In this document: positions 35,278 to 57,875 of the stretch, in pieces | Numbering within the stretch: position 1 is the first letter of the stretch | Layout: each line of letters starts with the position of its first letter | DNA from: Grifola frondosa | Taxonomy: Eukaryota > Basidiomycota > Agaricomycetes > Polyporales > Grifolaceae | Direction of reading: 5' to 3' | DNA length: 64,000 nucleotides | Assembly (NCBI GenBank): GCA_001683735.1 | Contig: LUGG01000022.1 | Coordinates: 682,001-746,000, forward strand | Notes under the pieces: generated by a model | What the model was told of the DNA's origin: nothing | Databases searched by the model: none | The model's input: only the letters and a program-made list of their open reading frames with translations | Made by a program: the position numbers and the translations under genes

Positions 35278-35287
35278 GATTCACAGT
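35278..35287 (+). repeat. Left terminal inverted repeat copy (GATTCACAGT)
   Basis: Ten-base motif matched in inverted orientation at 57866-57875. Further copies lie just inside the left end: 35701-35710 in the same orientation, and 35606-35615 inverted with one mismatch. It therefore behaves like a terminal/subterminal repeat. Confidence 0.45.
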
Positions 35288-35719
35288 GCGGCGGGACTTA
35301 CCGGTTTGTTTGTGCGTGCGTGGCAAGTCGCGTCGAGCTGGCCACGCAAGCCCCCGCACTCCTCGAGGGGAAGGGCCAGAAAAGGGACCTGGAGAGAGTA
35401 GATAGAGCCCACAGAAAATAAAACGAGTGATTGAGTCTGAAGCCTAGTCGAGTGAATTGGAAGCAAGAGAACAAGTCGGTGCAAGCAATGTCGTCGCCAG
35501 CATGTAGGTCAGTGCCAGCGTGGCGCAAGTGACTGTAACAAGTAGTGCGGCGCGTTCAGAGGTGTGCCGCACCCGTGCCGACCAACTAGGAATCTCCCAC
35601 GCTGAACTGTGAATTTTCCGGCTCGAAGCCTGGTGAGGAGGGGGTCGTTTTTCGCAGGCTCCCCCGCCAGAATGCGCTGCGAACGCTTTTCGACACTGTA
35701 GATTCACAGTTTCGGGTTC

Positions 35720-35913
35720 ACGGTATGAGCGCGGCTATCGGCAGCAACCCTTCGGGATCTGTCTCCTCCTCTCCTCTCTCCTCTCTTACACTGTGACTCC
35801 TCGTCCGGCCTTCATTGGCAACAGCTCCTTGTTGCCTCCCTCGTCGACACTAGTACTGCTCAGTTGGTGAAGCCTCTACCTGTCCACACCTACCGAAGAC
35901 CACCCTGACCCAC
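35720..35913 (+). promoter_or_regulatory. Pyrimidine-rich promoter of the nuclease gene
   Basis: A CT-rich tract (TCTCCTCCTCTCCTCTCTCC, about 35761-35785) lies 130-155 bp before the ATG. The start context CACCATGG is near-ideal for eukaryotic initiation. Inferred from position and composition. Confidence 0.4.
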
Positions 35914-36073
35914 CATGGGTGTCAACGGACTTTGGGAGGTGGGACTTGCTTTATGTCAGGCCGAAATGCTATCAAGACTGACATTTTCTCCACAAAGCTA
36001 CTGGCCCCCGCTGCTACTCGACGTTCACTGCCGCAGATGCTTCTCAAGGACGGTCTGGAGAACATCAGCAAAA
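35914..36073 (+). pseudogene. XPG/GEN1-type nuclease, 5' part (separated from its body)
   Basis: The ATG at 35914 gives MGVNGLWE, the classic Rad2/XPG/FEN N-terminus (Met-Gly-Val, with the second residue Gly needed for catalysis in the family). A 61 bp GT-AG intron follows, then LLAPAATRRSLPQMLLKDGL and ENISK at 36073. Beyond this point the frame runs into CTGTCTGA-rich repeat DNA and stops at 36117. The missing body starts with YRLGVDASIW at 51.66 kb. Joining at the shared CAAAA (36069-36073 and 51659-51663) keeps the frame exactly, so this is the displaced head of that gene. Confidence 0.75.
36069..36073 (+). repeat. Target-site duplication, left copy (CAAAA)
   Basis: Last five bases of nuclease coding sequence before the inserted block. 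Identical bases at 51659-51663 begin the resumed coding sequence. Removing one copy plus the block restores the codons for Ser-Lys-Ile-Tyr-Arg. Confidence 0.65.
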
Positions 36074-36079
36074 GTCGAA

Positions 36080-55486: not shown

Positions 55487-55645
55487 GTTGCGAGAGTAAA
55501 GTCGTGGCAATAAATCTAGCGAGCAGTGCAACTTGGTGTACGTACGGCGGCAAGTCCAATTTCGGCGATCAAGTCAGCCCACCCCTGAGTTTGGGGAGCA
55601 CTCGTCGTGTCACTCTATGCAGCGGTCGTCTTAGTATACATTATT
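55487..55645. promoter_or_regulatory. Bidirectional promoter between recombinase and SAP genes
   Basis: Only 159 bp separate the two divergent ATGs, so both genes probably share control elements. No specific site is recognised. Confidence 0.45.
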
Positions 55646-57417
55646 ATGCCCAAAATTAATACAAATCCTATTGTTGCCCTACAGCTGCCTCGCCCGGGTC
55701 AGACGCTGCATCAAGACCGACGTGCATTGACCTATGAATTTACCATGTAAGCGAGGTTGTCACGCGCTCTGTGTGAAAAGCTTGTACTCACCGTTCAATA
55801 TTCGGATAGCACACCGAAAACAACGGTCAAGGTGCTGAAGGAGACTCTCGCAAGCCATGGTCTTGCAAAGTCTGGCAATCGCAGCGAGCTAATCCAACGG
55901 CTAAGTGAATTTGCCGCTAAGGATGATGAATGGATAGGGTGAGCAGCCAACTCACTGACTCAATTTGAGCTTGCTCTGACCATGATCTGGCAGCCTGTAT
56001 CAGGCTCAAGCTCCATGAAAGAGAGGTGACATTAGCGGCGCTCGTACCCAATCTCATTCTGCAAAGCGCATTGCAGCGCTATTTGGCAGCGCCGAGATCA
56101 ACAATGTCGGATTCCCAAGCAAACACCAGAGCGATGAGGTCCAGCGAGTTGTTCGGCCACTTACAGATGCAGAGAGTGAACACAATGATTCATGGGTATT
56201 TTCGTGACTTGCCGCTCACCTACTAATGCTCCCGCTGATGTCTCCGATCTGTTGCAGGCAGACACAGTCCTGAAATCGAACGAGAGACCGCGAACTCACC
56301 GGGTGAATTTATCTGATGCTGCAACAAACTCTGGCAGCATTGTCAGCGAGGGAAACACTCCGCCATTGGATCCTGGAAGCTATGCTGTGAGTGAGACCCG
56401 TGGTGCATTTCTGGCTGATAAGGCTGATCTCGTGATAAGGCAATCACGGCCCGACGCATGGAACGTGAAGTACGACGGGAGTCTGAGGTGTGGTCGAAAG
56501 TGCTGGACAAGCTGCATGATATCGACGCGAAGATTGTCAACACACTTGTGTCTCACGCTTCTCAAAGTTCGGGCAGCTCGGGCAGAGTGGAAATCTCAGT
56601 GAGCGAGGCAGCCGATACTTCCATTTCCGATTCTGCTTTCCCGTCAGCACCGAGTCCACCCATCCAGCAGCCAGCTGCAGTCCCCGTTGCAAGCCGACCT
56701 AGTCAATGGGATCAGCCTAATAGCAATCTGAAGATGGTAATCTTAGGCAATGAAGAATTTACCTTCGACAAAACACAGGTTCCGGACCCCCCTCTTCGAC
56801 ACTTCTCCAAAGATATTTCCTGCCTGTTCCGAGAGTGGGAAGACTCGGAACTCCTCAAGGTTCACGGACGTCCAATTCCCGTAAAGTATTGGTCCGTGAT
56901 CTATAAGAAGAGTGCGGGCGCGAAGGCAAAGGCATGGGCTGCAATGAAGAAGGAATGGGGAAATTGGAAGGTGAGTACTCACAAATCATTGTTGCATGCC
57001 ATCACATGCGTACTGAGACCGCACCTCACTGTGCAGTACTTAGTGGACGAGAAGGTCCGCTTAGGATCTGAGGACGCGTTTTGGCGGGAATATACCAGTT
57101 CGGACGGCACCCGTTTCCGCTATCAACAAATCCTCAACTGCTTGAAGAATAATCGGAAACATGCCAATGCACAAGATGCTGCCACTGCGCAGGCCTATTT
57201 CAACAACAACCTCGGGCGCGAAGATGCTCAGGGTGTTTTCGCCTACAGCAAGTCTCGTTCGGCTAAGGTTTGCACCAAGGAGGCCGTCATTGCGAGGAAA
57301 TGGCGCAAATTCGTTCCGAAGGGTGCTGCTCTTGTAACTCAAGAGCAAAACACTTTGGAGAGGCAACCGTGGGGGCCTCCTTCACTCACAATGTTCACTC
57401 CTTTCCCACCACAATAA
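55646..57417 (+). CDS. SAP-domain DNA-binding protein
   Basis: The ATG at 55646 gives MPKINTNPIVALQLPRPGQ in exon 1. A 64 bp intron leads to a SAP motif (VKVLKETLASHGLAKSGNRS, then ELIQRLSEFA) at about 55830-55920. SAP motifs bind AT-rich or structured DNA. After disordered exons comes a conserved-looking C-terminal domain: HFSKDISCLFREWEDSELLK, WSVIYKKSAGAKAKAWAAMK and, after an intron, DAFWREYTSSDGTRFRYQQI with LNCLKNNRKHANAQ. It ends at TAA 57417. Exons are open except for one frame change near 56440-56480. It is divergent from the tyrosine recombinase, so a role as accessory or end-binding factor is an inference. Confidence 0.65.
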
Positions 57418-57865
57418 TCCGAATGTGAGGTTTACTATACTATCTCACTTTCTGAGTCTGTCTCTCCTTTAACTTGTTCATGCCCTTTCACGAACTTTAC
57501 CTCACATCCTCCTAGTATATATTCTAACCTTGCGGCATCACACTACTGTTACTGTCTGTAGCCCGCCCTTTAATTCACACATGCTCTGCCACATTCTGAA
57601 TTCTTGCGCGAGCTTCAAAGCACACACCGGAATTCAAGAATCAGCACCACTTTGAGGGTGACTCAATGCAGTGCCAATGCTCCCTGCATGCCGACAGCAC
57701 CGTCCGGCGCCGGAGGTCGATCGGCAACTCCAAATTCAAGTGCGAAAAACGTTTACATTCGACAAAATGAGCAGGACGAGTAACATGGTTTGCTTCCGCC
57801 AGAGGTTGGGGTCCTGGCGCTCACATGGGCGCCCAACCAAATGCGGAAGGCCGTGGGAACGAGCG
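57418..57865. other. Right terminal spacer of the candidate element
   Basis: Non-coding, between the SAP stop and the right inverted repeat. T/C-rich at first (57430-57560), then mixed. No open frame continues the SAP gene. Confidence 0.4.
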
Positions 57866-57875
57866 ACTGTGAATC
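57866..57875 (-). repeat. Right terminal inverted repeat copy (GATTCACAGT on minus)
   Basis: ACTGTGAATC on the plus strand is the exact reverse complement of 35278-35287. Confidence 0.45.

Follow-up and report, generated by a model that had tools for sequence, protein, structure and literature searches.

The 64,000-nucleotide stretch of Grifola frondosa DNA analyzed here (the window; C19:682001-746000, the genome comprising 39 Mb on 64 contigs) contains an element that encodes a tyrosine recombinase, a GEN1-related nuclease and a SAP-domain protein. Based on its comparison with further copies in the same genome, the element is very probably a DNA transposon of the tyrosine-recombinase kind, about 6.7-7.2 kb long and equipped with its own three genes. 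The genes and ends of the copy in the window are as follows.

35252..57920, + strand: whole element, about 22.7 kb, or about 7.1 kb minus a nested insert (alignment to the C1 copy)
35252..35287, + strand: left end, with the GGAAGAAG core followed by the subterminal motif GATTCACAGT at 35278
35701..35710, + strand: internal GATTCACAGT copy, in a stretch aligning to positions 316-465 of the C1 element
35915..35938, + strand: nuclease exon 1 (MGVNGLWE); XPG_N is found in the C7 homologue
35998..36072, + strand: nuclease exon 2 (LLAPAATRRS...)
51660..53550, + strand: remainder of the GEN1-related nuclease gene, with four SUMO-interaction motif (SIM)-like motifs in its tail; XPG_I, E 8e-13
53731..55486, - strand: tyrosine recombinase gene
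55646..57417, + strand: SAP-domain protein gene; Pfam SAP, E 2e-7 on the annotated protein P0122
57866..57920, + strand: right end, with a motif array (ACTGTGAATC ... CGTGAAT) and the terminal CACGGAGGAAG

All three proteins are encoded in the window as the first-pass annotation had described, the nuclease being recognized by Pfam XPG_I, the recombinase by its catalytic motifs and the third protein by Pfam SAP. The R, HxxR and Y motifs that it had reported belong to the set R-K-HxxR-W-Y (LLRYDEAL, FRKT, HSFR, WGGW and FKYL in the window), and residues R297, H403, R406 and Y443 of P0001 show either full invariance or conservation of at least 90% across 34 homologues. The predicted fold of the recombinase is Cre-like, as judged from a model of the homologue P0002. 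No Pfam match to GCR1_C or to DUF3435, the recombinase domain of Starship captains, was obtained in the C7 recombinase (E up to 1) or in the 34 homologues (E up to 0.1). One scan of viral contigs for the recombinase gave 6 pattern matches and no relative, and the recombinase may still be of viral origin. The recombinase and SAP genes are divergent, and their starts are separated by 159 bp, exactly as reported. The SAP domain falls under the cut-off in two relatives, P0125 and P0129 (0.013 and 0.042), and the C-terminal part of the SAP protein, in a model with a mean pLDDT of 68.7, had 0 of 101 Foldseek matches at E<=0.001.

The nuclease resembles GEN1/Rad2 proteins in possessing XPG_N and XPG_I (E 3e-7 and 7e-18, respectively, in the C7 copy) and differs from them in its tie to the recombinase and in GEN1_C, which Pfam did not find in P0130, P0139 or P0195. 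Its best solved-structure match is 5cnq (E 1e-45), a fungal GEN1. On C5, the genome has a different gene whose product does carry GEN1_C (E 4e-31) and which, judged by this domain, is the host's own GEN1. The SIM-like motifs noted in the first reading are present as four matches to [IVL][IVL][DN]LT in the nuclease tail, compared with seven across the six frames of the window, these four included. All three genes appear open in the C7 copy, and constraint was detected on all three.

The whole genome was queried with one exon each of the recombinase and nuclease and one piece of the SAP protein, which gave matches at six places for the recombinase, seven for the nuclease and seven loci (14 rows) for the SAP protein. 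The complete trio is found at five loci in identical order and orientation, namely C19 (the window), C1, C7, C10 and C6, so that both partners are present at five of the six recombinase loci. The leftover matches consist of one recombinase relic (C10:141917), the GEN1_C gene, one nuclease relic (C18:630148) and two SAP relics (C2:1808121 and C18:678320); no partner gene lies within 1.5 kb on each side of any of these relics. The C1 and C7 copies are 99.33% identical over 6722 columns, the identity stopping abruptly at both ends, and their flanks are unrelated. Each of these two copies is 6.7 kb long and the full C10 copy is 7.2 kb, in agreement with the module of about 7 kb estimated from the window. 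The alignment of copies that had been suggested for fixing the ends gave sharp ends for C1 and C7 and an exact right end for the window copy at 57920 (alignment to the C1 copy). The left end of the window copy, at about 35252, was extrapolated from a 30-bp match at 35307-35336 together with the shared end pattern.

The flanks of 12 insertions were joined by removal of the element, with one core kept, and were searched in the genome for empty sites. The joined flanks of C7 matched C14 at 100% (over query positions 222-402, the pair itself accounting for 222-400), C3 at 99%, C5 at 96% and two more places at 82%. The empty form of the C7 site reads TTTTGGAAGTGTATC and the filled form reads TTTTGGAAG[TAGAGCTG...CGGAAGAAG]TGTATC, so that GAAG occurs once before and twice after insertion, the two forms being otherwise identical. 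Between exact ends, the three genes are mobilized as a single unit, and the travelling together that had been proposed from one locus is borne out by the common order and orientation at five loci, the 99.3% identical pair and the exact empty site. It is neither the case that the three genes are never neighbours elsewhere nor that the nuclease is a lone host gene, the two contrary outcomes named by the first-pass annotation. Because two copies are near-identical and the C7 empty site is exact, the element was recently mobile. No long target duplication beyond the ends was seen in the insertion flanks inspected.

At the right end, a pattern ...GTGAAT.T..CGGA.GAAG is common to the five loci and to short derivatives of about 560 bp that keep the ends; with up to 3 mismatches it occurs at 28 places in the genome vs 17 for the backward control, 13 of the 28 having at most one mismatch. 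The left-end pattern AGTAGAGCTGAG...AAATTCACGG occurs at 12 places vs 0 in the control. The bases preceding AGTAGAGC are mostly GA, and the core therefore reads GAAG or AAG; three of the 12 left ends deviate, AG being replaced by CG in two of them and the last A by G in the third. GAAG is present at both C7 ends, and the remaining insertions match less exactly (AAG or AG). No inverted repeat is formed by the element ends themselves; immediately internal to them, however, C1 and C7 carry an 11-bp motif, ATTCACGGTCC, in opposite orientations on the two sides. More generally, copies of a motif resembling ATTCACGGT, of which GATTCACAGT is the window form, lie inside the ends, inverted between left and right. 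In C10, a tandem of three is composed of a derivative, the full 7.2-kb copy and a second derivative, and adjacent elements have one GAAG in common. For a 572-bp derivative, nine copies of near-full length were counted (87-100% identity, itself included), plus one with an interior insert. Two derivatives showed features of their own. Both flanks of the one at C6:1546512 recur on that contig at a spacing of about 0.9 kb (C6:1531982-1533106), and this duplicated site may therefore hold another insertion. The left and right flanks of the one at C8:161795-162569 have about 45 bp in common in direct orientation.

The first-pass annotation had placed the three genes between inverted copies of GATTCACAGT. 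These copies are real, with 4 observed in the window vs 0.19 expected, but they are subterminal instead of being the ends, and the fourth, at 59025, is outside the element. As a terminal repeat GATTCACAGT was rejected, since the flanks are unrelated (the four copies have no common flank past the 10 bp) and the homologous ends are situated further out. Genome-wide, GATTCACAGT occurs 68 times (38+30) vs 17 (8+9) in the backward control. The first eight genome GATTCACAGT loci (L001-L008) had neither additional copies of the wider motif nor matches to any of the three proteins; the genome-wide excess is thus not explained by these elements alone, and some other repeat family may use GATTCACAGT.

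The window copy lies within a larger arrangement of transposons, whose other parts are as follows.

36073..51659, boundaries approximate: nested insert, about 15.5 kb, containing a Plavaka transposase gene and having 28-nt inverted arms near both edges (repeats I1 and I2)
33901..35251, + strand: left part of an outer transposase-like gene, colinear with L043 and L048
57921..59100, + strand: right part of the outer transposase-like gene

The outer gene is repeated and transposase-like, with 22 matches in the genome. Its paralogues L043 and L048 continue uninterrupted through the insertion site at about 70% identity, and the spacing of the anchors is 287 bp in L043 vs 271 bp in the joined window flanks; the reported insertion within another transposon-type gene was therefore correct. 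The three genes of the window copy are likewise present as reported, but the nested insert was missed. Because this insert parts the first two exons from the remainder, the nuclease gene is interrupted in the window. The insert is missing from the C1 and C7 copies. Its Plavaka transposase (Pfam E 3e-26) is encoded by a gene at 39578-45828 that seems interrupted in turn, and the insert also has 9-, 12- and 15-nt tandem repeats.

A short motif, GTGAC/GTCAC, was first spotted by eye in the right flanks and tested afterwards. Counted over 11 insertions, it occurs 26 times (mean 2.4) in the 100 bp that follow the right end, compared with means of 0.36 on the left side, 0 in bases 101-200 and 0.19 for the window, and a count as high as 26 was not obtained in any of 20000 random draws. 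When all 5-mers were ranked over 13 insertions, it came first, with an 11-fold excess; it is present within 100 bp downstream in 12 of them, the exception being C2:1715631. The right flanks concerned are those of C1, C7 and derivatives (L054-L066, L076 and L079). The motif is missing from six right flanks whose ends are more distant, that of the window among them, and the preference is therefore assigned to one subfamily. GTGAC/GTCAC is a possible target signal on this distribution. The motif also occurs in the left ends of derivatives and of the C10 copy, so the left side of an element would itself be an acceptable target, which fits the C10 array; at the second inner junction of that array, no GTGAC/GTCAC lies within 150 bp.

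Protein searches that extended to other species gave 179 matches for the recombinase (120 listed), 389 for the nuclease (120 listed) and nine for the SAP protein, and a shared contig was defined by equal species and equal contig size in the protein records. All nuclease counts that follow are among the matches listed. Forty nucleases were without GEN1_C and 80 had it. Species of the recombinase list supplied 22 of the 40 without GEN1_C, and 12 of these were on a recombinase contig (about 1 expected for a 40-Mb genome), whereas the same species supplied 13 of the 80 with GEN1_C, none of which was on such a contig (0.3 expected; Fisher p 0.0006 for linkage without vs with GEN1_C). With Grifola excluded, 11 of 19 GEN1_C-less nuclease rows were on a recombinase contig, representing 10 contigs and eight species, and two of the shared contigs, from Cerioporus and Rickenella, are just 8552 and 10316 bp long, respectively. 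Pairwise identities of recombinase and nuclease in 11 pairs are correlated (r 0.81; 0 of 5000 permutations as high), a correlation of which common host history can cause part. A nuclease tree was built from 62 rows, comprising all 40 that lack GEN1_C and 22 of the 80 that have it. The latter fall into one group (100/97), and recombinase-linked rows are intermixed with unlinked ones. The records name such mushroom nucleases 'PIN domain-like' or 'Flap endonuclease GEN 1'. Six of the nine SAP-protein matches are from other species; three of the six are on a recombinase contig, one of these also with the nuclease. The only contig with all three genes is one of Rhodofomes roseus. Of the recurrence in other agaricomycetes, which the first-pass annotation had proposed as a check, the sharing of contigs was observed for the recombinase and nuclease pair, and co-linkage of the SAP gene outside Grifola appears in few cases.

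Comparison of the copies establishes precise insertion, a short repeated core, sharing of this core in tandem and the presence of a recombinase with its active site. A possible mobilization mechanism, in which the three proteins would cooperate, can be proposed on this basis. The recombinase may excise the element as a circle, and site-specific recombination could then place this circle at a new AAG-like core. The target and element cores agree in two to four bases only, which should trap a recombinase half-way, and a carried junction nuclease would solve this problem: the GEN1-related nuclease may cut four-way or flap junctions when the short target core mismatches that of the element. The SAP protein may bind the subterminal motif array, GTGAC/GTCAC beside the target, or both, and bring the recombinase. 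In its strictest form, the recombinase would perform only the first strand exchange at a mismatched core and the element's own nuclease would resolve the Holliday junction, so that no matching site is needed, while the SAP protein picks the target via GTGAC/GTCAC; this two-enzyme system is put forward tentatively and is rather unlikely to hold in full.

Several points weigh against the interpretation as a transposon moved by its own recombinase. The structural model is that of the Suillus homologue P0002 and not of the Grifola protein, only the right end of the C6 copy could be placed, and the nuclease gene is frameshifted in C1, though not in C7. Eight of the 12 insertions gave no cross-junction match, if an overlap of 12 bp by the flank of the window copy itself is left aside; C12b, C10b and C1 gave matches at 76-87%, and at this divergence the core in empty sites other than that of C7 is not fixed to the base. 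The SAP protein, with nine matches vs 179 and 389, may evolve faster or be absent in many relatives. Neither a circle nor an excision event nor expression was seen in the sequences analyzed. Finally, GAAG once in the empty and twice in the filled site is the footprint also expected from a short target duplication by an unknown transposase in trans, the data being compatible with both a shared core and a 3-4 bp duplication. This footprint, together with a window copy that adjoins and contains other transposons, would suit a trio carried as a passenger by another transposase leaving a 3-4 bp duplication. Such passage is nevertheless improbable, since Pfam found no DDE transposase in the C7 copy, a recombinase with the full catalytic set is present at each of the five loci and tandem copies have a single core in common. 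Far less probable still is segmental duplication of three neighbouring host genes, already refuted for C7: although it could produce five loci in one genome, the exact common ends with unrelated flanks, the exact empty site, the insertion within a transposase-like gene and the small derivatives with the same ends all argue against it.

It is a realistic possibility, though not the favoured one, that the nuclease and SAP genes are cargo, with the recombinase alone moving the element and the others serving to evade host repair or silencing or a similar end. Cryptons move with the recombinase alone (PMC3212892), the SAP gene is rare in other species, and the roles of the nuclease and SAP protein are predicted ones. 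On the other hand, the recombinase and nuclease recur together on shared contigs in eight other species, their identities correlate, if partly perhaps through host phylogeny, and all three genes are under constraint; retention over so long a time is more in keeping with a working part than with passing cargo.

Eukaryotic tyrosine-recombinase DNA transposons are few and mostly carry the recombinase alone. DIRS and Ngaro elements, which also have a tyrosine recombinase, carry gag, reverse transcriptase, RNase H and long terminal repeats, none of which was found here; for reverse transcriptase, there was no Pfam match in the three genes or in 15 other C7-copy frames of at least 85 aa (E up to 0.01). 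The element and Cryptons have in common a tyrosine recombinase with R-H-R-Y, low copy number, no reverse transcriptase found here, and short direct repeats at the ends, GAAG here and 4 or 6 bp in Cryptons (PMC3212892). CryptonF proteins carry GCR1_C, and the Cryptons described encode a single protein or carry a second domain fused to it (C48 peptidase or DDE), without separate GEN1-type nuclease and SAP genes, both of which the present element possesses (PMC3212892). Cryptons also have a circular intermediate and no terminal inverted repeats; here the ends themselves are not inverted, whereas ATTCACGGTCC just inside them is. The element appears to work like a Crypton and lacks the GCR1_C of CryptonF. 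Starships are similar in being fungal and recombinase-driven, with direct repeats and empty sites (PMC12506042), but are described from Pezizomycotina and reach hundreds of kb (PMC12134995), compared with 6.7 kb here. Ngaro occurs in Agaricomycotina (PMC3783388). In agreement with the first-pass annotation, no earlier account of such a trio was found in the open-access literature, Repbase and subscription journals being outside the scope of the search.

With its exact ends, an apparently intact C7 copy, small derivatives and an exact empty site, the element is experimentally tractable. A recombinase, a Holliday-junction-type nuclease and a DNA-binding protein travel together in it, and the recombinase-nuclease pair is found on shared contigs across mushroom-forming fungi. 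If the nuclease is part of the reaction, the element would provide an example of how tolerance of poor target sites arises in a site-specific recombinase.
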